Shown: in pieces, positions 12,051 through 32,594 of the stretch
Position numbering within the stretch: the first letter of the stretch is position 1
Layout of the letters: each line of letters begins with the position of its first letter
Source: Candidatus Thiobius zoothamnicola
GTDB lineage: Bacteria; Pseudomonadota; Gammaproteobacteria; Chromatiales; Chromatiaceae
NCBI GenBank assembly: GCA_030826945.1
Contig: JAPQLC010000015.1
Location: forward strand, 1-64,000
DNA length: 64,000 bases
Reading direction: 5' to 3'
Made by a program: the position numbers and the translations under genes
Notes under the pieces: model-generated
Seen by the model: the letters and a program-made list of their open reading frames with translations, nothing else
The model's database searches: none
Told to the model about the DNA's origin: nothing

Positions 12051-14054
12051 ATGTCCTCACGTAGAGAACTTGCAAATGCCATCCGTGCTTTGAGCATGGA
12101 TGCAGTGCAGAAAGCCAACTCGGGGCACCCTGGCGCCCCGATGGGCATGGCCGATATTGCTGAGGTCTTGTGGAACGACCATATGACGCATAACCCAGCC
12201 AATCCAGACTGGGCTGATCGTGACCGCTTTGTATTATCAAATGGTCATGGCTCCATGCTGATTTATGCGTTGCTGCATTTAACGGGCTATGACTTACCCA
12301 TGTCTGAGCTGGAAAACTTTCGTCAGTTGCACTCCAAAACACCAGGACATCCGGAATATGGCTATGCGCCCGGCGTGGAAACCACCACAGGCCCACTCGG
12401 CCAGGGTATTTCCAATGCCGTCGGCATGGCAATTGCTGAAAAAGTGCTGGCCGCCCAATTCAACCGTGAAGGTTATTCAATCGTTGACCACCATACCTGG
12501 GTCTTCATGGGCGATGGTTGCATGATGGAAGGCGTTTCGCATGAAACCTGCGCTTTGGCTGGCACTTTAGGCTTAGGTAAATTGGTGGCTTTCTGGGATG
12601 ACAACAAAATCTCTATTGATGGTGATACCGAAGGCTGGTTTACCGACGATACCCCGGCTCGCTTTGAAGCTTATGGCTGGCAAGTGATTCGTGATGTGGA
12701 TGGACATGATGCCGCCGCCATTGAAGCCGCTATCCAACAAGCTAAAGCGCAAACCGGCAAACCTTCTTTGATCTGTTGCAAGACCATCATCGGATGGGGC
12801 GCGCCGAACAAGCAGGGCGGACATGATGTACATGGTGCCGCATTGGGCGAAGACGAAGTGGCGGCGACCCGCGACAACCTGGGCTGGCAACATGCGCCTT
12901 TCGTCATTCCGGATGAAATCCGTGCAGGTTGGGATGCCAAACAAAAAGGCACCGCAGCGGAAGCTGATTGGAATACGAAATTTGATGCTTATGCAGCAGC
13001 TCACCCTGAACTGGCGACCGAGTTCAAACGTCGTATGGCGGGTGAATTACCGGCTGACTGGGAATCTCAGGCCACAGCGTTCGTCCAACAAGTTGCGGAT
13101 AAAGCCGAGAAAAAAGCGACCCGTCAACACTCCAAAGGCGCACTGGATGGCTATGCGCCCATGTTGCCAGAGTTCATTGGCGGCTCGGCTGATTTGACGC
13201 CTTCCAATAACACTTTCAACAAAACCTCCAAATACATCAACGCCGATCATGGCAAGCCGCAGGATTTTTCCGGCAACTACCTGTCTTACGGTGTACGTGA
13301 GTTTGGCATGTCAGCCATCATGAATGGCATGGCCTTGCATGGTGGTGTACGCCCTTATGGTGCCACCTTCCTGATGTTCTCAGAGTATGCGCGCAATGCG
13401 TTGCGCATGGCAGCCTTGATGAAGATCAATCCAATCTTCGTCTACACTCATGATTCAATCGGTTTGGGTGAAGATGGCCCAACGCACCAGCCCGTTGAGC
13501 AAATCCCCACGTTGCGCATGATACCCAACATGTCCAATTGGCGTCCGTGCGACGGTACGGAAACTGCCGTTGCCTGGAAAGCAGCGGTTGAACGCCAGGA
13601 TGGCCCGACCTGCTTGATTTTCACCCGTCAAGGTCTGGCACCGATGGAGCGCACCGCAAGCCAGATTGCTGATATCGCCAAAGGCGGTTACATCCTGAAA
13701 GACAGCGAAGGCACGCCAGATTGCATAGTGATCGCCACCGGCTCTGAGGTTGAAATCGCTATGGCGGGCGCGGCGGCATCCGGCAAAAATGTTCGTGTCG
13801 TCTCCATGCCAAGCACGGATGTGTTTGATGCACAAGATGCTGACTATAAAGAATCCGTGTTGCCAGCTGCTGTGACGGCGCGTGTCGCCGTTGAAGCCGC
13901 TGTGACCGATGGCTGGTACAAATATGTCGGTATGCAGGGCAAGGTGATCGGGATTGATCGTTTTGGTGAATCCGCGCCTGCTGGACAGTTGTTTAAAGCG
14001 TTCGGTTTCACGGCGGATAACGTAGCGGCTGCGATCAACCAAGTGACCGCATAA
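12051..14054 (+). CDS. tkt: transketolase
   Basis: Thiamine-diphosphate enzyme that transfers two-carbon units between sugar phosphates in the Calvin and pentose phosphate cycles. 667 residues, normal length. Motifs: SGHPGAPMG near the N-terminus, the ThDP motif beginning [15 protein letters not shown] at the junction, and the pyrimidine-domain segment [18 protein letters not shown]. Cytoplasmic. It is the first gene of a tkt-gap-pgk-pyk-fba run on the same strand; an AGGAGA site precedes the ATG. Confidence 0.97.
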
Positions 14055-14142
14055 ACCTGATGCGCAACAGCGGGGTTGGATAAACCATCAGGCCCCGTTG
14101 ATGTGTTTTGACATTATGATTAAAGACATTCAAAAAACCTGA

Positions 14143-15162
<1,020 letters not shown>

Positions 15163-15200
15163 TCTTCAAGATTAAGTCAGGCATCGCGCATTTTGCGTTT

Positions 15201-15237
15201 CCGCCGGAATCCATCTAATACAGATGGATTCCGGTGG
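15201..15237. repeat. 16-bp hairpin between gap and pgk
   Basis: Inverted repeat of arms CCGCCGGAATCCATCT and its complement (one G-T mismatch) around a five-base loop. There is no T run after it. It may be an mRNA stabiliser or processing site at the gap 3' end, or a small intergenic palindromic repeat. The surrounding 15163-15399 contains no gene. Confidence 0.6.
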
Positions 15238-15399
15238 TAGAACCAGATTCCAACACAAAAATCCAGAGAATGACATTGCCCATCGTTACGCTCAGCATCT
15301 CATTGCATTTCCTCGTTCTTTGAATATCACCAAGAGTTTTCAGTTCAAAGCCAACTTTGACCTGAATACTTTTAAAGCAGATTGCAAGGGAGTTCCCAC

Positions 15400-16587
15400 A
15401 TGGCTTTCATTAAATTGACCGATCTTGATCTTGCCGGTAAGCGCGTTTTAATCCGCGCCGATCTGAACGTGCCGGTAAAAGATGGCGAAGTCACTTCTGA
15501 CGCGCGTATTACCGCCTCCATGCCCACCATGGAGTATTGCGCCAAAGCAGGTGCCAAAGTGATGGTGATGTCGCACCGTGGCCGCCCCGAAGAAGGCGTG
15601 ATGGATGCTGAGAATTCCATGTCGCCAATTGCTGCGGATATGTCCAAGAAACTGGGCAAAGACGTACGCCTGATCAAAGATTATCTGGACAATAAGCCGG
15701 AAATCGCCGACGGCGAAATCGCGTTGTTCGAAAACGTGCGCTTCAATATTGGCGAAAAGAAAGATAACGAAGACTTGGCGAAAAAATATGCCGCTTTATG
15801 CGACATTTTTGTGATGGACGCATTTGGCACCGCGCACCGCGCGCAAGCGTCCACCCATGGTGCGGGTAAATTCGCGCCAGTCGCGTGTGCTGGCTTGCTG
15901 TTATCTGATGAGTTGGATAACTTGGCGAAAGCTTTAGCCGAACCTGCGCGTCCGATGGTTGCTATTGTCGGTGGCTCCAAAGTTTCGACTAAATTGACCG
16001 TGTTGGAAGCTTTGTCTGAGAAAGTGGATCAATTAGTCGTGGGTGGTGGTATTGCGAACACTTTCCTTGCGGCTACCGGCCATCCTGTTGGCAAATCCTT
16101 ATATGAAAAAGATTTGGTGGATACCGCCAAAGCGTTGATCGAAAAGATGAAAGCGCGTGGTGCCAACATTCCAATCGCCACAGATGTCGTTTGCGGCAAA
16201 GCCTTCAGCGAAACAGCCGAAGCCACTTTGAAAGCGGCGGGCGATGTTGCTGAGGATGACATGATTTTTGATATCGGCCCGGATTCCGCCAAAGCACTGG
16301 CTGATATCATCGCCAAAGCGGGTACCGTGGTTTGGAATGGCCCGGTCGGCGTATTTGAATTCGATCAATTTGGTGCAGGCACCAAAACGGTTTCCATGGC
16401 GATTGCAGAATCTGACGGCTTCTCGCTGGCGGGTGGTGGCGACACCATTGCGGCCATCCAGAAATACGATATCTACGATAAAGTCTCTTATATTTCGACG
16501 GCAGGTGGTGCCTTCCTTGAGTATTTGGAAGGCAAAACCTTACCCGCCGTCGCTATGCTGGAAGAGGCGGCCAAGCAACAGAAATGA
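15400..16587 (+). CDS. pgk: phosphoglycerate kinase
   Basis: Transfers phosphate between ATP and 3-phosphoglycerate. In CO2 fixation it makes 1,3-bisphosphoglycerate. 395 residues from ATG 15400, chosen because AAGGGAG lies just upstream and family similarity begins [19 protein letters not shown]. Motifs: [23 protein letters not shown] and the C-terminal GGGDTIAA. A longer frame begins six codons upstream. A hairpin follows the stop codon. Confidence 0.96.
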
Positions 16588-16591
16588 TCCA

Positions 16592-16617
16592 AAGAGAGCA
16601 GCATAAGCTGCTCTCTT
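16592..16617 (+). terminator. hairpin between pgk and pyk (attenuator or terminator)
   Basis: Near-perfect stem GAGAGCAGC / GCTGCTCTC with a four-base ATAA loop, beginning five bases after the pgk stop. Only a weak T tract follows, so it may act as a partial terminator or as a 3' end protecting the pgk message. It argues against translation of pyk starting at the ATG that overlaps the pgk stop. Confidence 0.55.
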
Positions 16618-16679
16618 CATATGCGTATCAATACGTCGAACAGCTTGGAGGCAGTCAGCGCGCAGACGTTGATTGGAAA

Positions 16680-18131
16680 ATGATGTTGAGAAGAACGAAG
16701 ATCGTAGCAACTTTGGGGCCAGCAACGGATGACCCAAAGATCCTCGACCAGGTTATCGCCGCAGGTGTGGATGTTGTGCGCCTGAACATGTCGCATGGCG
16801 ACTATGCGGATCATGAACGTCGCGCTGAATGGGTGCGTAATCGTGCGCGCGCCAGTGGTCGTCAGGTCGGTGTGCTGGTGGATTTGCAAGGGCCTAAAAT
16901 TCGGATTGGCGGTTTTGCTGACGGGCCGATTGAACTGGCTTCAGATGACCGGTTTATCTTGGACACCGGATTTGATGTCACGGCTGGCAATCAGGAACGC
17001 GTCGGCGTGACCTATGCGACACTGCATGAAGAAGTCTCCCGAGGCGATACATTATTGTTGAATGATGGATTGCTGGTGCTATGGGTCGAAGAAGTGGAAG
17101 GCACGGAAGTCCGCTGTAAAGTGAAAGTCGGCGGAACCCTGTCAGATAAAAAAGGTATTAACAAACTGGGTGGTGGATTATCCGCTCCGGCACTCACGGA
17201 AAAGGATAAACAGGACATTGCATTTGCCGCGCGCATTGAAGCGGATTATATGGCGGTTTCTTTTGTGCGTAATGCGGAAGATGTCAAATTGGCGCGCGAC
17301 TTATTGCGTGAAGCTGGCGGTAATGGCGGCATTGTCGCCAAAATTGAGCGTGCCGAAGCGTTGGACAGCATTGAAGACATCATTGAAGCCTCCGATGTCA
17401 TCATGGTGGCACGGGGCGATCTGGGTGTTGAAATCGGTGATGCTGAGTTACCCGCCGTACAAAAACGCCTCATTCGCACCACCCGTCAAATGAACCGCGT
17501 AGTGATTACGGCGACGCAAATGATGGAATCCATGATTCATAATCCGATTCCAACCCGCGCCGAAGTCTTTGATGTGGCGAATGCGGTGATTGACGGAACA
17601 GATGCGGTGATGCTATCAGCCGAATCCGCCGCTGGAAAACACCCGGTCAAGGCGGTTGAAGCCATGGATCGAGTCTGTCTGGAGGCGGAGAAACAACGCC
17701 AGACGCGACGTTCTGACCACCGTTTACACACCGTATTCGGACGTATTGATGAATCCATCGCCATGGCCTCTATGTATACCGCCAACCACCTGGGGGCCAC
17801 GGCAATCGCATCATTGACGGAATCCGGCTCCACCACCCAATGGATGTCGCGTATCTCATCCGGCATTCCGATCTATGCGTTAACCCCTTCAGTCGCCACC
17901 CGTCGGCGGGTCACGCTGTTCCGGGGGGTTTATCCGGTCAGTTTTGACATTGAATCCGGCGTTGACACGCAGCAAATTAATGCGGAAGTGATTGATGAAC
18001 TGCTGCGCCGTGGTGCTGTGCGTGATGGTGACCTGGTGATTATCACCAAAGGTGATCTGACCGGTGTGGCGGGTGGCACTAACGTGATGAAAATTATTCG
18101 TGTGGGCGAACATGTCGTTCCACGAGACTAA
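16680..18131 (+). CDS. pyk: pyruvate kinase
   Basis: Converts phosphoenolpyruvate and ADP to pyruvate and ATP. About 483 residues from ATG 16680. The start MMLRRTKIVATLGPA matches the family; an upstream frame overlapping the pgk stop would add 32 unrelated residues. Motifs: RLNMSHG, LQGPKIRIG, VAKIERAEALD, the DVIMVARGDLGVE segment and TATQMMESM. A C-terminal allosteric domain is present (STTQWMSRI, AVRDGDLVIITKGD). It lies inside the Calvin-type cluster, as in many autotrophic Gammaproteobacteria. Confidence 0.95.
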   Translation: MMLRRTKIVATLGPATDDPKILDQVIAAGVDVVRLNMSHGDYADHERRAEWVRNRARASGRQVGVLVDLQGPKIRIGGFADGPIELASDDRFILDTGFDVTAGNQERVGVTYATLHEEVSRGDTLLLNDGLLVLWVEEVEGTEVRCKVKVGGTLSDKKGINKLGGGLSAPALTEKDKQDIAFAARIEADYMAVSFVRNAEDVKLARDLLREAGGNGGIVAKIERAEALDSIEDIIEASDVIMVARGDLGVEIGDAELPAVQKRLIRTTRQMNRVVITATQMMESMIHNPIPTRAEVFDVANAVIDGTDAVMLSAESAAGKHPVKAVEAMDRVCLEAEKQRQTRRSDHRLHTVFGRIDESIAMASMYTANHLGATAIASLTESGSTTQWMSRISSGIPIYALTPSVATRRRVTLFRGVYPVSFDIESGVDTQQINAEVIDELLRRGAVRDGDLVIITKGDLTGVAGGTNVMKIIRVGEHVVPRD

Positions 18132-18194
18132 GTGAAGTATCGTGTGATTTCTCACGCGGACTAATCTGCAACTACTCAATAAGGAGCTGAAATT

Positions 18195-19259
18195 ATGGCA
18201 CTGATTTCTCTGCGCCAAATGCTGGACCATGCCGCTGAACACGGTTATGGTGTACCGGCCTTTAATGTTAACAACCTGGAACAAATGCGCGCCATCATGG
18301 AAGCGGCTGACCAAACGGATTCCCCCGTTATCGTCCAGGCATCAGCTGGTGCGCGTAGCTATGCTGGCGCGCCTTTTCTACGCCACTTGATTCTGGCGGC
18401 AATTGAGGAATTTCCACATATTCCTGTGTGTATGCACCAGGATCACGGCACCTCGCCCGCTGTTTGTCAACGCTCCATTCAATTGGGCTTTTCCTCGGTG
18501 ATGATGGATGGTTCATTGGGAGAAGACGGTAAAACCCCTGCCAGCTACGAATACAATGTGGATGTCACCAAACGTACCGTCGATATGGCGCATGCCTGCG
18601 GCGTTTCAGTGGAAGGTGAATTAGGTTGCCTGGGTTCATTGGAAACTGGCATGGCGGGTGAAGAAGATGGTATTGGTGCGGAAGGCAAACTGGATCACAG
18701 CCAGTTATTGACCGATCCTGAAGAAGCGGCTGACTTTGTCAAGAAAACCGGCGTGGATGCTTTGGCGATCGCCATTGGCACATCACACGGCGCTTACAAA
18801 TTCACTCGTCCGCCGACTGGCGATATTCTGGCGATTGAGCGCATCAAAGAAATTCATGCGCGTATCCCTAACACCCATCTGGTGATGCATGGCTCCTCAT
18901 CCGTGCCGCAGGACTGGTTAGCCGTGATCAACGAATACGGCGGTGATATGGGCGAAACCTACGGCGTGCCGGTTGAAGAAATTCAGGAAGGCATCAAGCA
19001 CGGGGTGCGCAAGGTCAATATTGACACGGATCTGCGGATGGCTTCTACCGGCGCTATTCGTAAACATCTGCATGATAACAAGTCGAACTTCGATCCACGA
19101 AAGTTCCTCAAGGCGTCAACGGATGCGATGCGCGATATTTGTAAAGCGCGTTATGAGGCTTTCGGCACGGCTGGCAATGCCTCCAAAATGACAGCGATCA
19201 GTCTGGACGATATGACGGCCTGTTACCAATCGGGTGATTTGGATCCTAAAGTCAACTGA
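18195..19259 (+). CDS. fba: class II fructose-bisphosphate aldolase (Calvin-cycle subtype)
   Basis: Zn-dependent aldolase joining or splitting fructose-1,6-bisphosphate; the Calvin subtype also handles sedoheptulose-1,7-bisphosphate. 354 residues. Metal-site motifs are [10 protein letters not shown] and [18 protein letters not shown] and VMHGSSSVP bind phosphate and metal, and NIDTDLRMA follows. Length and motifs fit the CbbA-like class IIA/B branch of autotrophs rather than E. coli FbaA. AAGGAG precedes the ATG by 8 bases. It is the last gene of the tkt-gap-pgk-pyk run. Confidence 0.95.
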
Positions 19260-23525: not shown

Positions 23526-23607
23526 AAGTATGCTTCTTATTATCTTTTCTTGTCGTGAAATGCACGTAAAGCGCAAAAGCAGTGCCTAGAAAAACAACAA
23601 TGAGCAG

Positions 23608-23702
23608 TGTAGGGCGGGAAAGCCTCCCACTAAAGCCGTTTTCAATACAAATCGAAATCGCTGAAATAGCTTTGGTGCGGAAGCGCATCCCGCCTTCTGG
23701 GC
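23608..23702. repeat. REP-like palindromic units 2 and 3
   Basis: TAGGGCGGGAAAGCCTCCC at 23608-23629 is in inverse orientation to unit 1. GTGCGGAAGCGCATCCCGCC with TTCTGGGC lies at 23676-23702. The second ends six bases before the transposase ATG, as is common for transposases that act on their own REP elements. Confidence 0.6.
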
Positions 23703-23707
23703 AAATA

Positions 23708-24274
23708 ATGTACCGTAAAACCAAGCTGCAAAAGTTACACTTGCTTTATGCCAAATTAAATACGTGCCTTGTTCCCGGTGGCACCTTTTTCTTCACTGTT
23801 GCATTACTTGAACGCAAACGGAGCCTATTGACCGAGCATGTCGATGATTTGCGCCTGGTTTTTTCCGCCGCAAGGAAACATCGGCCTTTTATTATTGACG
23901 CCATTGTGATTTTACCCGACCACCTGCATTGCATCTGGACTCTGCCGCCAGGGTACAGTGATTTTTCAACCCGTTGGCACGACATCAAATTCCGTTTCGC
24001 CGCCAAAATACCGCATGGTGAAAGGCGTTCAATACGTCGGCAAAATAAAGGCGAACGGGGTATTTGGCAACGTCGTTTTTGGGAGCATGTGATTCGTGAC
24101 GGGCAGGATTTATCACGGCATATTGATTATATCCATTACAATCCGGTCAAACACGGTCATGTTGACCGGGTCACTGATTGGCCGTATTCCAGTTTCCATC
24201 GTTATGTCCGGTTGGGAGTTTTGCCGCAGAATTGGGCAGCTGGTGAGGAGGTCAGGCAAATGGATGTGGAGTGA
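23708..24274 (+). CDS. REP-associated tyrosine transposase (RAYT, Y1 family)
   Basis: About 188 residues from ATG 23708. Y1-type HUH nuclease: PDHLHCIW carries the HxH metal site and HIDYIHYNPVKHG carries the nucleophilic tyrosine region; WPYSSFHRYV is a hallmark of the RAYT branch. An upstream extension of the frame reads through REP sequence and is rejected. Single-copy RAYTs are thought to mobilise REP palindromes. REP-like units flank it on both sides. No intact IS ends are seen. Confidence 0.88.
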   Translation: MYRKTKLQKLHLLYAKLNTCLVPGGTFFFTVALLERKRSLLTEHVDDLRLVFSAARKHRPFIIDAIVILPDHLHCIWTLPPGYSDFSTRWHDIKFRFAAKIPHGERRSIRRQNKGERGIWQRRFWEHVIRDGQDLSRHIDYIHYNPVKHGHVDRVTDWPYSSFHRYVRLGVLPQNWAAGEEVRQMDVE

Positions 24275-24791: not shown

Positions 24792-25646
24792 CTACGTTTC
24801 TATATTTAGATAGTCAGGAAGTATGGTTTTATCTTTTCGAGCTTTCTCAATTCCTTTGCATTTGTCTAAATTCTCAGTTTTAGAGAAATCCGATTTCATT
24901 ATTTCTGTATTCTCATTAAAAACAGCATTCTGGAAATCAGACTCATGGAAAATTGAACCAACCAAATTGCTGTTAGAAAAGTCTGTATTTTCAAATACAC
25001 AGTCATAGAAACAAGAATCTGACAAGTTAAAGTCTATCAGTCTAGCCCGACTAAAATCTGCGTAGGGAAGATAGATGTTAGATAAGTCATATTTCTTCCT
25101 GTTTGAATCTTTTTCAAATTCAAAATGTTCTTTTTTACTTAATTCACGAATTGTTGCAACAGCCGCTTCAATATCTATGTTGAGGATATTATCTTCTTTT
25201 TCATCTTTTGATTCACCAGTGTTTTCTTCTTTACCTCTTGATTTATCACAGACTTCGCCTTCAGATCTTTTTTGATTATGCCGGATAAAGGCGCAAAGCG
25301 TATTAACAATTACTATCAATTCACTAGGATTGGTTTCTGCAATTTTTCCTAACGCATAAATTGCGCCTTGGCGTACCGCTTCGCTATCTTTTCCCAACAG
25401 TTCAATAGATTTGGCAAAGGTTTCAGCAAGTAAACGATCATCATCTGTTTTATTTTGTTTTTTCAGTGATTGTGTGCGTTCGTAGGCAAGATACAAACCA
25501 GCAACTACCAAAGGAAACGCTAATAGATATGCCAACCCCCTTGTTGCTTCTTCATATATAGATGTTACACAAAAAGAAATATACCCCCAACTCCCTACAA
25601 ATAATATCGCAATAATCCAAATGGATACTTTCTTAAGTGTAGACAT
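24792..25646 (-). CDS. membrane-anchored pentapeptide-repeat protein
   Basis: 284 residues. Two N-terminal transmembrane helices (about 7-30 and 37-55) are followed by a HEAT-like stretch (AVRQGAIYALGKIAE), an acidic low-complexity linker (about 125-160), then pentapeptide-like repeats from about 195 (YADFSRARLIDFNLSD, FENTDFSNSNLVGS, ESDFQNAVFN). Such proteins occur in stress or defence settings, but no activity can be assigned. The gene is clearly more AT-rich than its neighbours, suggesting transfer. Its ATG directly follows the stop of the upstream GRDP-like gene (TAG-ATG). Confidence 0.75.
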   Translation of the reverse strand: MSTLKKVSIWIIAILFVGSWGYISFCVTSIYEEATRGLAYLLAFPLVVAGLYLAYERTQSLKKQNKTDDDRLLAETFAKSIELLGKDSEAVRQGAIYALGKIAETNPSELIVIVNTLCAFIRHNQKRSEGEVCDKSRGKEENTGESKDEKEDNILNIDIEAAVATIRELSKKEHFEFEKDSNRKKYDLSNIYLPYADFSRARLIDFNLSDSCFYDCVFENTDFSNSNLVGSIFHESDFQNAVFNENTEIMKSDFSKTENLDKCKGIEKARKDKTILPDYLNIET

Positions 25647-26138
25647 CTACGCATGTAACTGGTAGTCAGAAAATGAAGGACGTTTTTGCATAAAAACATC
25701 ATTGCCTTCAATTCTTCTGCCGCAATTGGGGCAACGTTTGCTGCTTTGCCACAAGTGTTCAGGCAGGGTTATAAATTCACGGATATACAGTTCTTTGGTT
25801 TGCTTCCAGGCCATTTCCAGGTTGTTGGCGTCTTGTTCATCCCGCATACCGAAATAGGGAAAATGGTGTAAAAAGTAGCCGAAGCATGCTTCACAGTCTT
25901 GCGCATATTTTTGCGTGTCCAGGATATGCAGGTGCCAAAAATCATCTACCTGAGTTGATGGCACGATGGCGATATTCGGGGTTTGCAGGCATAGAACCAG
26001 GAATTTTCTGTATTCGTCAGAAACTTCCAGAGCGTAGTCAAATGACCAACCCAGTCCTTCTTCTTGATCCATTGCCTTGATCACAATGGGTTCCAGGTCG
26101 AGTTGTTGCAGTATGTAGTCTTGGTGTTGCTTGAGCAT
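25647..26138 (-). CDS. GRDP-like protein with zinc-finger-like CxxC tail
   Basis: 163 residues resembling the glycine-rich domain-containing-protein-like family (PF07173): QVDDFWHLHILDTQKYAQDC and FLHHFPYFGMRDE are its two signatures. A C-terminal CPNCGRRI adds a CxxC that may bind zinc with upstream Cys. The family has no established biochemical role. It forms a tight two-gene unit with the pentapeptide-repeat protein downstream. A REP-like unit lies just upstream of its start. Confidence 0.7.
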   Translation of the reverse strand: MLKQHQDYILQQLDLEPIVIKAMDQEEGLGWSFDYALEVSDEYRKFLVLCLQTPNIAIVPSTQVDDFWHLHILDTQKYAQDCEACFGYFLHHFPYFGMRDEQDANNLEMAWKQTKELYIREFITLPEHLWQSSKRCPNCGRRIEGNDVFMQKRPSFSDYQLHA

Positions 26139-26236: not shown

Positions 26237-27541
26237 TCAATAAAAAACATCCTTGGTGAAGTTGTTGTACCAACTATACGCATACTCTACATCCAGCTTG
26301 AGTTTCTCATCGGTGGCATCGGCATCAGACATCCCGCCACTGTCGGGTACAGCATCAATGCTATTGCCATCGTCGGACAGTCGGTACACGGCTAATACGG
26401 AGATCGCATAGTCGTGATCCACGATGCTGTAGCAGGTGTTGCTGAATGCTGGGTTGCCAGGCTCGCGTCCGTTCAGCAGATCAGATATTGCAAAGGCGCA
26501 GGCCTTGGCTTCGGAGTTTGCGGCGAAGCCTGATTTGGGTAGGTTGGTCGCGGTGCAGGCGTCGCCGATGATATGGATATCTTGATGACGTGTGGATTCG
26601 AAGGTTTGACGATTGACCGGGCACCAGCCAGTTTCATCGGTCAGGTCGGCTTGGAACGCGATGGCTCCAGCCTTTTGCGGCGGTATCACATTCAGCACGT
26701 CGGCGGAGACTACATCGCCGAATTCGGTGTAGGCGGTGCGTGCTGCTGCATCCACCCGCACCACACCAGCGGCATCATCACCCGAGCGCCATTCGATCAT
26801 CGCGTCTGCGGTCTGGTAGCCGTAGCGGCGTTGCCAGGCCAGTTCAAACAGGGATTTTTTGGCGAAGCTGGTTTTTGGATCCAGGATGATGACCTTTGAG
26901 TTTGGTTTGTGTTGCTTCAGGTACATCGCGATCTGGCTGGCGCGTTCATAGGGTGCGGGCGGGCAACGGTACGGGTTGGGTGGGGCCGCGATGACCACCA
27001 AGCCGCCATTGTCCATGTCCACCAGTTGTTGGCGCAGGGTCAGGGTTTGGTTGCCGGCCTTCCAGGCGTGCGGCGCGATTTCCGCCGCTGCCTCGCTGTA
27101 GCCTTCAATATCTGTGTAGCGGAAGTCGATGCCGGGTGCGACGATGCATTTGTCATAGTCGATCTGCGCGCCGCCTGCCGTGCTGATGCGGTGTTGCGTC
27201 GGATCAATGGAGGTGACTTGGTCATGCACCATCTGCACGCCATGTTGGGTTAGACCGGTGTAGCCAAAGCGCAGGCTGTCCAGTTCGCGCGTCCCGCTCA
27301 GCACCTCGTTGCTCATGTAGCAGGTCAGATAGTCCGCGTTTTGTTCGATCAAGGTGACTTGCAGGCTGGGGTCGGCGAGGCGTAGGTATTTGGCTGCAGT
27401 CGCTCCGCCAGTACCGCCGCCGACCACCACCACGCGCGCATTTGAAGCGTGCGCCGTTTTTTGCCAGGCAATTCCTCCCAAGAGGAGTCCTGCGCCGGCC
27501 ATGGAGCGGATGAATTGTCTGCGGTTGAATGTGTTGTTCAT
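26237..27541 (-). CDS. fccB: flavocytochrome c sulfide dehydrogenase-type flavoprotein
   Basis: 434 residues. A Tat signal ([17 protein letters not shown]) directs a folded FAD protein to the periplasm. FAD motifs are [13 protein letters not shown] and [17 protein letters not shown]. Cys74 in LTCYMSNEV matches the FAD-linked Cys42 of the Allochromatium enzyme. Cys193 ([10 protein letters not shown]) and Cys370 (SNTCYS) match its redox disulfide once the signal is subtracted. Known members oxidise sulfide to sulfur with a small dihaem partner, fccA. No fccA is present; the gene starts 9 bases after a DUF1552 gene and follows a tetrahaem CBM2 protein. Sulfide or another donor could be the substrate. 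Confidence 0.85.
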
Positions 27542-27549
27542 GTTGTTTA

Positions 27550-28830
27550 CTACCCCATCAAGCCGGGTAATTCACCGGGTGTATCGTCAGTATTGCCAAA
27601 TTGGTTGATCGGTACACCCATGAATTGGGCGATTGAGACCAATATTTTGTTGTGCGCGGCATTGTCGTAGGTCAGATAACGACCCGTCTGAATGCCGCCT
27701 GCACGACCGCCAGCCAATACGAAGGGCATGTTGACATGGTTGTGCCAGGACGAGTGGCCTAGTTCGGAGCACAGGAACAGTACGGTGTTGTCCAGCAAAG
27801 TGCCATTGCCATCCGGGTAGGTTGCCAGTTGTTCGATCAGGATGGCGAACCGGTCCACGAACCAAGCCTTGATCAGGTCAAAATGTGAGTCAAAGTCGTG
27901 CGATGCTTGATGGCATGGTTTGGAGCTGCCGCTTTCGGGTACTGCCAGCGGAGTTACCGGATAAGCCCATTTCAAAGTGACCACCCGGGTCAAATTACAA
28001 GCCAGGGCGCGCACGGCGATGTCGGTTTGTAACGCACCGACTATTGGCGCGTTCGCATGGTTCATATATTCATTGCCATACGCATCACTGGTGACCATGA
28101 AGCCTTGTTGGTTGAATCCACTGGTATCACAGGTTGCTCCGCTGTCGCCTGTGGATAATCGCCGTTCCAGCGTGCGTAAGGATTCCAAGTGGTAGTCCAG
28201 CTTTTCGCGTTCGATAGTTCCCAATCGGGCTTTGAGTTGATTGACTTCATTCAGCGCATTGTCGATCACACTCAGGCGACGTGTATTTTGCGATTGATTG
28301 CCAGCATCTGAACCAAATAGCGTTTCGAATACTGCCAGTGGATTGTCTTCGGTCGGGATTGGGCTGCCGTCTGCGCCATAGGTGATCGGTTTGCTCCATT
28401 CATTGCCGATCACGCCGAGGTTCAAAAAAGGGCGTTGACTCTGGTTGCGGAAATAATTGCCCAGATAGACATCCAGACTGGCTCCTAAGCCGTGGGAATG
28501 GCCAGAGCCGCCGGTCAACACTTTGCGCATACCACCTTCATGGGTGCCACCGCTGCCGTACATTTCGATGCCTTGCAAAAATACGCAGTGCTGTTTGACC
28601 CGCTCCAGTGGCTGGGTCATGGTTGGCAGTTGAAAGTTGGTCTCTGTACCCGTCGGGTGCCATGAGTTTGGATTACAGCCGTTCGGGATGTACACGAAGA
28701 TGGCGCGACGTGGGCTGGTCGCATCAGCCAGAGCTGGGCGCACCAGCGGTAGAGCGGCTGCGCTGAGGCCGCCAATACCAAGCAATTTGAGGAATCGGCG
28801 GCGGTCAGGAGAAAGTGCGTCCTGATTCAT
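27550..28830 (-). CDS. Tat-exported DUF1552 protein
   Basis: 426 residues with a twin-arginine signal ([20 protein letters not shown]) and the DUF1552 fold, which appears related to alkaline-phosphatase-like DUF1501 proteins. Motifs: [26 protein letters not shown] and [24 protein letters not shown]1552 genes are regularly paired with DUF1592/1588 haem proteins in planctomycetes, myxobacteria and some gammaproteobacteria, as here. No enzymatic activity is established. The ATG overlaps the upstream gene's stop by one base, so the two are cotranslated. Periplasmic. Confidence 0.85.
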
Positions 28831-31800
28831 TATTGAACCCTCCGGTGAGTAAAGCTACGCGAGTTGACGATGCCCAGGATCAGGGTTTGCAGGTTAGAAC
28901 CGTTGTTGACGAATTCTTCGGTTAATGCACTCAGTTCACACTGGTCAGCGCTGCTTTCTTCGCGTCCGGTGGCAAAGCGGTAGTATTGGGTCGCCATGCA
29001 TTCAGCACCGCGTGTGCTGCCGACCAGGATTTGGTTCATTTCGGCGAAATTACCGAAGGGTATTTGCTCGCCGGACTGGAAAGTCTCCAGGCCGCGCAAA
29101 ACGCCGCTGGTGTCAATGGATTGACCATTTTCGTTGGCTCGATAACCGCCTGCACCGTCGTAATTCTCAAAGGCGAAGCCAGGGCCATCCAGGTATTGAT
29201 GGCATTCGAAGCAACTGGTGTCCGATTGACTGTGCGCAGCGAACCGTTCGCGGGTGGTCAGGTTAGGATCTGGCGCGGGCGGCATCACGCCCATGTTGCC
29301 CGGTTCCGGCAGGTCTTGGCACAGTATACGATCCAGGAAGAAGGAGCCGCGCTTGAACGGATGCGATTCGTTGGTGTTGGCATAGCGTGCCATCACGCTG
29401 CCCAGAGTCAGCGCGCCGAAGCGGGTGCCTTGCGCAGGCACCATTTGCACGTTGCCGCCGGATGCGCTTAGTCCGTAATAACCGGCCAGGGTTTGATCGG
29501 CCAGCACATAGTCTGCGCTGATCAGTTCCTGATAGGTCTGGGTGCTGTCGAACACCACATGGTTGAAGAAGTTGACCACTTCCTGTGCCATGCGTTGCCG
29601 GATTGCATCGGTGTAGTTCGGGTAGGTGGTCATATCTTTGCCGGGCGTGGTGTACACATCATCGGCTAACAACCATTCACCGGCGAATTGACCCAGCCAG
29701 GCTCTTGATTTGGGTAGCGCAAGCAGGCGCGCGGCCTGTTCGATCCGACCGGCTGCGTCTTGCAGGGCACTGTTTTGCGCTGCGCTCATCAGTTCGTCAT
29801 CCGGCATGGAGCCGAGGAACAGATAAGACAGCGCGCTGGCCAGTTCATAATCGGTCAACTGATAAGTACCGTCTTCCTGTAATTCACCCAATTCAGAGCG
29901 GTACAGGAAATGCGGTGAACTGAGCATCGCGGTCATCATCAGGCTCATACCATCTTGTAAGGTACGGCCAGAGAAGAACCCGGCATAGGTCTGTTGTTCG
30001 CTTGCGCTCAGCGGACGGCGGAACGCATCCTGACCGAAATCATTGACCAGGGTATTAATGCAAGCCGAGGTGCTTTCGTTACACGACATCAATTCAGCCT
30101 GATTCGCCGTTAGCGCTTGCTGCGCCAAGTCTTCGGCCATATTCAGGTAGGTTTCAACATGCACATCCGTGATCCGGTTTTGTGCGCTGTTGTTGGCGAA
30201 TCCGCGCACCCGATTCTCGATCGGTAGTTGGTGCACGATGTTCACTGTCAGGCCAAGCAGGTCCTGCACCGTATTTTGGTATTCGCGCCGGGTCAGCAGA
30301 CGCAGGCCACGTTCCCCAGCCGGTGGTTGCTCGGAACAGGCTATGCCGCCGTCATCTCCTCCATCGGCGAACGCCTGGATGATGTAAGCGGTGATGGCAT
30401 CGGCGCAAGAACCTGTGCAATCACTTGGTGCACTGGGTGGCATGGTATCCGCAGTTGTCTGACTGAGCATGCTAGCATGGTTTTGGGTGTAGCCAGTCAA
30501 CGCCACATTGGTGAAGCCGCCGCCGCCATCCGCGCCATGGCAGGCTGCACAAGCTTTGGCCATATACAGGCTGGCACCATAGTCATATTCGGACAGCAGG
30601 TTGGCGTTGGTTTCGACTGAATTGCTTGCACCGTGATCATTCAGCGCAACCAGCTGATATTGATAGCTTATCCCGGCAACAACCGCATTGTCGGTATAGC
30701 TTTGGGTATTGGCGTTCAAATCAGCCAGGGTTTGCCATTCGGTCTGGTCTCCAATCAAGCGGGACAGACGGAAACCGGTTTCATTGCTGCTTCGATCCTG
30801 CCAAGTCAATTGAACCTGATTGTTAGTCAATACGTTGGCGTGCAAGTTGGCAGGCGTTGTGGGCACTGTACTGTCGTCAGGGTCCGTCGGATCGGTAGGA
30901 TCTGTTGGGTCGATCGGGTCAGTGGGATCTATCGGGTTGGTTGGCTCTTGTTCGGTGGTGTCAGCCGCATAGAACTGGGCCAGTTGATATAGCGCCTGGT
31001 CGCCATATTCCTGTTTGATGCCGATAAGCTGTTGCGCCATCAATGTGGGTATATCGGTGCTATGGCCTGCCCAGTAATCTTCCAGCGTGGCTTCCAGATA
31101 GGGCGACCACTGGCTGGCCAGTGGAACACCGCTCAGACCAGTTGCACGCCCGGCATCGGCATGGCACACGGTGCAGCGTGCCTGATGGATGATGCGGCCT
31201 TGTTGCACCGCTTGTTCGTTGGTGCTTTGCTCGGCGGTATGCACGAAAGGCAATGTTGCATAGTGCTCGGCCAGCGCACGGATATGCTCATCTGTATAGC
31301 CGCGTGCGACCCGGCCCATGATGGTCGAGGCGCGTTCATCGGTCTGGTAGGTCTGCATGGTCTGGGTGAAATAATCGACATTCAGACCCGCGATGGTCGG
31401 GATGCCTGGACCAGCACTGGAACCATCCGGGCCGTGGCAGCTGGAGCAGGTACCTGCGAGCAGGCGTACATTAATCTCGGTGCGATCCGGCGGGTCATCC
31501 GGCACTTCATCCTGCCCTGCGCAGAAAACGCCATCCACGCGCACATCGGTTGGTATTTCATTGGTGCCGTTATGTGTGCCGTTATGTGTGCCATTGAAGC
31601 CGAAGCTGAGCGCCGCATTCTTGAGTACTTCGGTATTCCAGCCTGGTGAGGTGGCCTGAATCGCCGTGCCGTTTTGGTTGATCACGCTATTCCAGGCGTT
31701 GGTGACTACTTGACCATTCGGCATGCTCCATTCGACCTGCCAGTCGTACCAGTCACGCCCGGTGTTGGTGATGACCACATCGGCGGTGAAACCAGTGTTC

Positions 31801-32594
31801 CATTGTTCACGGATGTCGTAGCTGACCTGACAAGAGACCGGTTCTTCCGGTTCGGGTTCCGGCTGACCATCGCATAAAATGCCATTCACTTTAATATCGG
31901 TGGGCACCGGGTTTGGTCCTTGACGGGTACCATTAAAGCCGAAACTGAGCACAGCATCTTTGGCTATGTTGGCGTTCCAACTTACCGGAGATACCTGCAC
32001 GGTATCACCATTTTGGCTGATCACGCTATTCCATGCATGAGTCACCACCTGACCGTTCGGCATGCTCCATTCAACCTGCCAGTTGCTCCAGTCGCGCCCG
32101 GTATTGGTGATCATCACATCGGTGGTGAAGCCAGTGCTCCATTGCTCGCGGATGTTGTAGTTGGCTTCACAGGTAACCGGTTCTTCTGGTTGTTCAGGCT
32201 CGGGTTCCGGTTGACCTGTACACAAGGTGCCGTTGACGGTGATGTTGGTGGGAATCGGGTTTGCCCCTTGGTGGCTGCCGTTGAAGCCAAAATTCACCGT
32301 TTGATTGGCACCCACTTGGCCGTTCCAACTAGCGTTTTGCACACTGACTTGATTGCCGTTTTGATTGTGCTGGCCGTTCCATAAGCCGGTAATCTGTTGG
32401 CCGCCAGTGAAATCCCAGGTTGCTTGCCAACTGCTCCAGGCATCGCCCGTGTTGGTGATATTGACCGAGGCGGTAAAGCCGGTATTCCACTCGCTGCTAA
32501 AGCTGTAATCGACATGGCAGGCATTGGCTGCATAGCCTGATACAGGCAACAAGGCAAAGAGACAGACGGCATGGACGATATGTCGAATCTTCAT
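28830..32594 (-). CDS. secreted tetrahaem CBM2 protein with DUF1592-type tail
   Basis: 1254 residues with an N-terminal Sec signal (about 1-22). Three CBM2-type carbohydrate-binding modules lie at about 26-125, 142-241 and 255-358, joined by PEPEPE linkers; conserved Trp and terminal Cys pairs are visible in each. Haem motifs: CSSCH 383, CTVCH 474, CAACH 682, CFECH 1128. A DPTDPTDP-rich linker (549-580) leads to an Fn3-like domain (581-665). The tail has DUF1587 (766-790), DUF1595, DUF1592 (910-1045), DUF1588 (1060-1160) and DUF1585 (1180-1250). The first haem pair resembles tandem cytochrome c4-like domains. It probably binds cellulose or chitin and passes electrons at the cell surface; this role is inference. 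Confidence 0.85.
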   Translation of the reverse strand: MKIRHIVHAVCLFALLPVSGYAANACHVDYSFSSEWNTGFTASVNITNTGDAWSSWQATWDFTGGQQITGLWNGQHNQNGNQVSVQNASWNGQVGANQTVNFGFNGSHQGANPIPTNITVNGTLCTGQPEPEPEQPEEPVTCEANYNIREQWSTGFTTDVMITNTGRDWSNWQVEWSMPNGQVVTHAWNSVISQNGDTVQVSPVSWNANIAKDAVLSFGFNGTRQGPNPVPTDIKVNGILCDGQPEPEPEEPVSCQVSYDIREQWNTGFTADVVITNTGRDWYDWQVEWSMPNGQVVTNAWNSVINQNGTAIQATSPGWNTEVLKNAALSFGFNGTHNGTHNGTNEIPTDVRVDGVFCAGQDEVPDDPPDRTEINVRLLAGTCSSCHGPDGSSAGPGIPTIAGLNVDYFTQTMQTYQTDERASTIMGRVARGYTDEHIRALAEHYATLPFVHTAEQSTNEQAVQQGRIIHQARCTVCHADAGRATGLSGVPLASQWSPYLEATLEDYWAGHSTDIPTLMAQQLIGIKQEYGDQALYQLAQFYAADTTEQEPTNPIDPTDPIDPTDPTDPTDPDDSTVPTTPANLHANVLTNNQVQLTWQDRSSNETGFRLSRLIGDQTEWQTLADLNANTQSYTDNAVVAGISYQYQLVALNDHGASNSVETNANLLSEYDYGASLYMAKACAACHGADGGGGFTNVALTGYTQNHASMLSQTTADTMPPSAPSDCTGSCADAITAYIIQAFADGGDDGGIACSEQPPAGERGLRLLTRREYQNTVQDLLGLTVNIVHQLPIENRVRGFANNSAQNRITDVHVETYLNMAEDLAQQALTANQAELMSCNESTSACINTLVNDFGQDAFRRPLSASEQQTYAGFFSGRTLQDGMSLMMTAMLSSPHFLYRSELGELQEDGTYQLTDYELASALSYLFLGSMPDDELMSAAQNSALQDAAGRIEQAARLLALPKSRAWLGQFAGEWLLADDVYTTPGKDMTTYPNYTDAIRQRMAQEVVNFFNHVVFDSTQTYQELISADYVLADQTLAGYYGLSASGGNVQMVPAQGTRFGALTLGSVMARYANTNESHPFKRGSFFLDRILCQDLPEPGNMGVMPPAPDPNLTTRERFAAHSQSDTSCFECHQYLDGPGFAFENYDGAGGYRANENGQSIDTSGVLRGLETFQSGEQIPFGNFAEMNQILVGSTRGAECMATQYYRFATGREESSADQCELSALTEEFVNNGSNLQTLILGIVNSRSFTHRRVQ

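Follow-up and report, generated by a model that had tools for sequence, protein, structure and literature searches.

A conserved operon combining a flavocytochrome c sulfide dehydrogenase with a putative Cbp2D-type carbohydrate-binding cytochrome in sulfur oxidisers

We analysed the first 64,000 nucleotides (nt) of contig JAPQLC010000015.1 of Candidatus Thiobius zoothamnicola (assembly GCA_030826945.1), hereafter the window, in which three adjoining genes on the minus strand encode, in this order, a 1254-residue fusion protein, a DUF1552 protein and FccB, the flavoprotein of flavocytochrome c sulfide dehydrogenase (FCSD). An earlier interpretation made from the letters alone (the sequence-only reading) had described these genes as an operon holding fccB without the fccA cytochrome. 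The operon is real, with gaps of -1 nt (fusion/DUF1552) and +8 nt (DUF1552/FccB). The fusion protein has the architecture CBM2-CBM2-CBM2-FccA-FN3-X183-PSD, FN3 being a fibronectin type III domain, and as it contains an FccA domain, the operon therefore encodes a complete FCSD. On the basis of these domains, and with modest confidence, we view the system as a Cbp2D-type carbohydrate-binding cytochrome in which an FccA/FccB entry module would replace YceI or a sugar dehydrogenase.

The FccA domain was identified by sequence search of the Protein Data Bank (PDB): residues 376-544 of the fusion protein match FCSD haem subunits (3vrd_A, E 1.6e-25; 1fcd_C, E 1.1e-22) almost over their full length (chain residues 4-172 of 174). 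The apparent puzzle of an fccB lacking its fccA thus disappears, because the missing cytochrome is this domain. Pfam and NCBIfam return generic cytochrome c and 'PdsA' matches for the region and do not reveal its FccA identity, which may be why it was overlooked. The protein contains exactly four CXXCH motifs (residues 383, 474, 682 and 1128); haems 1 and 2 belong to the FccA domain, haem 3 to the X183-type domain and haem 4 to DUF1588. In the operon copies, the FccA domain keeps both of its CXXCH motifs as well as the candidate Met ligands. The best match of the window FccB is 1fcd_A (E 3e-160), spanning the whole mature protein, and the flavin-binding Cys42 and the redox pair Cys161/Cys337 are conserved in 14/14 operon FccBs compared (the window and 13 others). 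The dihaem FccA by which an FCSD is recognised is hence encoded together with FccB, as a fused domain instead of a separate subunit.

The order fusion-DUF1552-FccB is kept in all 15 loci whose contig continues far enough to assess it, one being that of the window, one from Thiohalocapsa and the other 13 from a family identified as Thiotrichaceae/Thiothrix; gaps range from -1 to 26 nt, and there are always exactly four CXXCH motifs. A close relative is found in Thiohalocapsa sp. ML1, a member of the window's family (Chromatiaceae in NCBI), where the DUF1552 protein is 62% identical and the three genes have the same order; it was the sole close match in a scan of 84,980 genomes and the only other one among the 210 genomes of the window's order. 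A class-level search recovered a further operon genome (G160), which led to the Thiotrichaceae/Thiothrix family, where a close DUF1552 is present in 14 of 63 species genomes. No further close member was found in a sample of 399 genomes of the phylum, and a plasmid search returned only distant DUF1552 proteins. Copies of the whole operon with roughly 50% identity occur in other genera and in another family. At the level of FccB, the window protein shares 61–65% identity with the other operon copies and 51–56% with canonical FccBs, and in a phylogenetic tree the operon FccBs fall outside the supported clade (99/99) of canonical FccBs.

The window's genome contains other fcc loci. On contig C21 (L033:194-9829; L028:6597-9219), a 3211-residue protein precedes a DUF1501 protein and a second FccB, 59% identical to that of the window. 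The large protein comprises PA14 domains (seven) and FN3 domains, an FccA domain that shares 48% identity with that of the window, and a tail with a DUF1592/DUF1588-like haem segment (hhalign E 4e-7). In the C21 protein FccA has been joined independently to glycan-binding modules, and the arrangement 'glycan-binding modules, FccA and haem tail, then DUF1501 or DUF1552, then FccB' has therefore occurred at least twice. An ordinary fccA-fccB pair lies on contig C31; a canonical fccAB elsewhere in the genome, which the sequence-only reading had proposed to look for, does exist, and the operon nevertheless carries an FccA of its own. Contig C18 (L030:4866-6150) holds an fccB split by a frameshift into two overlapping frames, with no fccA seen beside it; this gene is a pseudogene, or else the assembly is wrong there.

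The remainder of the fusion protein was as the sequence-only reading had it: Pfam and the motif positions confirmed three CBM2 domains, four CXXCH motifs, a DUF1587/1595/1592/1588/1585 tail and the DUF1552 partner. The planar Trp residues of type A (cellulose/chitin-binding) CBM2 modules, which we take to be W17, W54 and W72 of the Cex CBM2a, are present at 9/9 positions in the three window modules, as assigned by aligning module 1 with 1exg and modules 2 and 3 by alignment; the binding aromatics that had been singled out for checking are thus intact, and the third Trp is missing in the third module of some Thiothrix copies. The X183 domain is related to 8q1v (E 2e-8) and 7b21 (Cbp2D, E 1e-4), 8q1w being also near, and no match to the quinone-binding YceI (X158) domain was found in the fusion protein with Pfam. 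As in PSCyt/PSD-type pairs, the DUF1592/1588/1585 protein adjoins a DUF1552 protein with a twin-arginine (Tat) signal. FccB has a twin-arginine N-terminus too, and that of the fusion protein is a Sec-like signal peptide. These features support the earlier proposal of an exported, Cbp2D-related CBM2 multihaem protein that may receive electrons from FccB.

Related DUF1552 loci carry other modules in the place of FccA. In a 1.6 Mb genome of the window's family (G460), a CBM2-YceI-FN3-X183-PSD protein and a CBM2x2-PKDx2-YceI protein lie directly beside DUF1552 (L079:96-6322), and in domain composition this pair resembles Cbp2D/Cbp2E. At three further loci (L027:9459-16157, L097:10380-17489 and L099:2720-9193), proteins of 2157-2369 residues combining CBM26, a glucose/sorbosone dehydrogenase (GSDH), cytochrome and PSD domains each adjoin DUF1552; judged by their domains, these would be a sugar-dehydrogenase version of the same PSD and DUF1552 chassis. 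Since YceI or GSDH occupies the slot of FccA in these systems, FccA/FccB would fill the donor slot of a known chassis.

The genetic unit is well supported, and from it we infer the following mechanism. FccB, carrying flavin adenine dinucleotide (FAD) and exported by Tat, would pair with the FccA domain of the secreted multihaem protein, and the three CBM2 modules would tether the complex, outside the cell, to a beta-1,4-linked polysaccharide, either of the organism's own sheath or biofilm matrix or of detrital cellulose or chitin; candidates are the Thiothrix filament sheath, the Thiohalocapsa slime and detrital cellulose. Sulfide would be oxidised to sulfur or polysulfide at the FAD/disulfide site of FccB, and the electrons would pass from the FAD through the two FccA haems and the X183 haem to the DUF1588 haem, which lies in the PSD (X132) tail, and from there to some acceptor, a path drawn from family chemistry. 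DUF1552 would act as an obligate partner of the PSD tail. That the operon thus provides an extra FCSD, fixed to the extracellular matrix and delivering sulfide electrons to a Cbp2D-type haem chain, seems to us somewhat better than an even prospect. It is unlikely, in our estimation, that these electrons power a matrix-bound machine for modifying polysaccharide, in which the PSD (X132) tail, together with DUF1552, would have a new catalytic activity on the CBM2-bound glycan.

Several observations weigh against this picture. The tree did not resolve how the operon FccBs are related and does not unite them in one clade; resolution is poor in the FccA tree, where the operon copies do not form one clade either. 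A PDB profile search gave no plausible match for DUF1552, a PDB sequence search found no solved relative of the PSD tail, and AlphaFold models of both, computed from two-row alignments, were unusable (predicted local distance difference test scores of 33-34). As for the ligand, contig C42 (L006:1134-3767) of the window's genome, apparently that of a sulfur oxidiser, encodes what appears by eye to be a GH9-type endoglucanase with two C-terminal CBM2-like domains, and this genome has no cellulose-synthase-like protein, so that the CBM2 ligand may here be cellulose instead of a sheath. The GH9-type gene lies just downstream of an AraC-type regulator on the opposite strand. Thiothrix genomes contain weaker cellulose-synthase-like glycosyltransferases, and the sheath of T. 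nivea is a glucosaminoglucan. Canonical cellulose synthase was considered as a source of the ligand and rejected, with no match over the cut-off in 17 genomes.

The GH9-type protein also speaks for a different function, in which FccB/FccA would feed an oxidative or reductive activity of the PSD tail/DUF1552 pair that cleaves polysaccharide, helping mixotrophic use of cellulose or chitin; a comparable role has been hypothesised for Cbp2D/E of Cellvibrio japonicus. The shared chassis points the same way, through the X183 match to 7b21 and the CBM2-YceI-FN3-X183-PSD homologue beside DUF1552, as does the finding that cbp2D and cbp2E are essential on insoluble cellulose and are proposed to cut it directly (PMC12542752). 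We nonetheless regard this function as rather unlikely. The carriers are sulfur oxidisers and no known cellulose degraders. AA10 lytic polysaccharide monooxygenases (LPMOs; PF03067) are absent from the three operon genomes tested (the window's genome, G160 and Thiohalocapsa ML1), which leaves the earlier suggestion of electron delivery to an oxidative polysaccharide enzyme without support as regards these LPMOs, and in most operon genomes the CBM2 domains are confined to the three of the fusion protein, the exceptions being the window's genome and G610, where further CBM2-like domains occur in a separate protein, which in the window's genome is the GH9-type enzyme. For these two reasons a cellulose-degradation set is unlikely, and the cellulose link drawn previously is weak. 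Towards LPMOs, isolated X183 domains are slow reductants or inactive (PMC8981238, PMC10916295, PMC12542752), those of Teredinibacter having failed to feed one (PMC10916295).

The same proteins could instead form a dedicated periplasmic FCSD that passes electrons to a soluble cytochrome c, with the CBM2 and PSD parts merely anchoring it to the envelope or to periplasmic glycans. Ordinary FCSD is periplasmic, and the twin-arginine signals of FccB and DUF1552 agree with this location. CBM2 domains, however, bind insoluble glycans outside the cell, and a homologue of the secretin GspD scored over the cut-off in 11/11 genomes tested, which makes export to the outside possible, as type II secretion systems can export folded Tat substrates. 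Among published relatives, Verrucomicrobia PSCyt proteins were predicted by He et al. to be periplasmic or cytoplasmic (PMC5615132), whereas Cbp2D and Cbp2E of Cellvibrio japonicus were found in secretomes (PMC8981238); we consider the periplasmic arrangement quite improbable. We are slightly more doubtful that the substrate of the operon FccB has changed from sulfide to an organic thiol, polysulfide or a sulfur compound bound to polysaccharide, or that the enzyme works in the reverse direction. Its position outside the canonical clade and the canonical fccAB already in the genomes would fit such a change, but all catalytic cysteines and the flavin attachment are conserved, the identities quoted above group the window copy with the other operon copies, and the carriers are sulfide oxidisers. 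There is, finally, hardly any probability that fccB adjoins the DUF1552 and DUF1592 genes by chance, without a functional link. The more distant DUF1552 loci examined (L024-L027, L079 and L094-L099) do show no adjacent fccB, yet in 15/15 assessable close homologues fccB lies directly downstream within 26 nt, as the neighbourhood check suggested by the sequence-only reading brought out. Chance is excluded because this order is kept while the operon recurs at about 50% identity; in addition, the upstream fusion itself holds FccA, and the window's genome has the second FccA-fusion/DUF1501/FccB operon.

Coordinates of the operon and of the domains of the fusion protein are collected below.

Table 1. 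Features of the operon, in window positions.
Feature	Position	Strand	Details
Fusion gene, 1254 aa	28830..32594	-	Sec signal peptide, CBM2 x3, FccA dihaem, FN3, X183-like cytochrome c, PSD3/5/4, PSCyt3, PSD2; four CXXCH
CBM2 module 1	32220..32519	-	Three planar-face Trp, aligned with Cex CBM2a (1exg)
CBM2 module 2	31872..32171	-	Corresponding three Trp present
CBM2 module 3	31521..31832	-	Corresponding three Trp present
FccA-type dihaem cytochrome domain, residues 376-544	30963..31469	-	Haems at CXXCH 383 and 474
Fibronectin type III-like domain, residues ~578-656	30627..30863	-	Sequence comparison
X183-type cytochrome c domain, residues 671-743	30366..30584	-	CXXCH 682; nearest solved relatives 8q1v, 7b21 (Cbp2D), 8q1w
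PSD3 / DUF1587, residues 765-828	30111..30302	-	Pfam
PSD5 / DUF1595, residues 845-901	29892..30062	-	Pfam
PSD4 / DUF1592, residues 913-1042	29469..29858	-	Pfam
PSCyt3 / DUF1588, residues 1058-1154	29133..29423	-	Pfam; fourth haem motif CXXCH 1128
PSD2 / DUF1585, residues 1180-1248	28851..29057	-	Pfam
DUF1552 / HXXSHH protein, 426 aa	27550..28830	-	Pfam E 7e-65; twin-arginine signal; 1-nt overlap with fusion gene
FccB, FCSD flavoprotein, 434 aa	26237..27541	-	FCSD_central E 1e-46, FCSD-flav_bind; RR (Tat-like) N-terminus; Cys42, Cys161/Cys337 (1fcd numbering) kept

A promoter scan gave fewer sites than shuffled sequences. Downstream of fccB, two minus-strand genes (24792-26138) encode a 163-residue protein without Pfam match and a 284-residue pentapeptide-repeat protein; their GC content is 38%, compared with 51% in the window and 56% in the operon, and they are likely recent arrivals outside the conserved unit. 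Further on (23582-24274), a 230-residue protein without Pfam match at 1e-8 resembles by eye a REP-associated (RAYT-like) transposase. The 'Calvin-type block' noticed earlier in the window (12051-19259) is indeed present as tkt-gap-pgk-pyk-fba, genes that are shared between glycolysis and the Calvin cycle, and neither RuBisCO nor phosphoribulokinase was seen in it.

Both kinds of component were known before, and what appears from the domain assignments to be new is the combination of FCSD with a Cbp2D-type CBM-cytochrome. A sulfide system is what one would expect of carriers that oxidise sulfur; the unexpected part is the tether. Our literature search found no paper on an FCSD with carbohydrate-binding domains, nor on this operon in Thiothrix; Thiothrix genome papers (PMC8570282 among them) count fccAB among the core genes and give no particulars in the parts available, and operon copies may have been counted there simply as fccAB. 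Research on bacterial cellulose use has yet to settle which donor and acceptor the large CBM-cytochromes (Cbp2D/E, TERTU_2913/3803) have and what they do in catalysis, and the operon supplies a likely electron donor for this class. Because the donor module is an enzyme that is well understood and acts on a substrate as simple as sulfide, the haem chain could be driven and its acceptor searched for directly. The operon also suggests that some Thiothrix and Chromatiaceae oxidise part of their sulfide fixed on a polysaccharide surface. If, as we consider unlikely, sulfide electrons do drive a catalytic activity of the PSD tail with DUF1552, Cbp2D with its YceI, the CBM26-GSDH proteins and the FccA/FccB system would make up a single family of extracellular, modular 'dehydrogenase plus haem-tail' enzymes differing in their donors.

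Compared with known systems, the operon shares with the planctomycete-type PSCyt/PSD systems of Rhodopirellula and Verrucomicrobia the order PSD3/PSD5/PSD4/PSCyt3/PSD2 and the adjacent DUF1552. Those systems have DUF1552 or DUF1501 neighbours, and one group of them has CBMs; in the available part of their description (PMC5615132), where the verrucomicrobial PSCyt/CBM proteins are of unknown function, the architectures include neither FccA/FccB nor the CBM2 triple. With Cbp2D/Cbp2E of Cellvibrio japonicus and TERTU_3803/TERTU_2913 of Teredinibacter, whose domain set is CBM2, X158, FN3, X183 and X132, it shares CBM2, FN3, X183 and a DUF1587-type haem tail in one protein. However, the entry module is here FccA with FccB in trans, whereas theirs is X158/YceI or pf08450-X173, a pyrroloquinoline quinone (PQQ)-like pair joined in TERTU_3803 to X183 and X132 (PMC10916295), and it occurs in sulfur oxidisers in which no AA10 LPMO was detected. 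With the FccAB enzymes of Allochromatium (1FCD, 3VRD), it has in common the covalent-flavin and redox cysteines in a 434-residue FccB and a complete dihaem FccA domain. In contrast to these enzymes, FccA is a domain of a 1254-residue CBM2/PSD protein and not a separate 20 kDa subunit, DUF1552 is an obligate partner, and the operon is present on top of a canonical fccAB.

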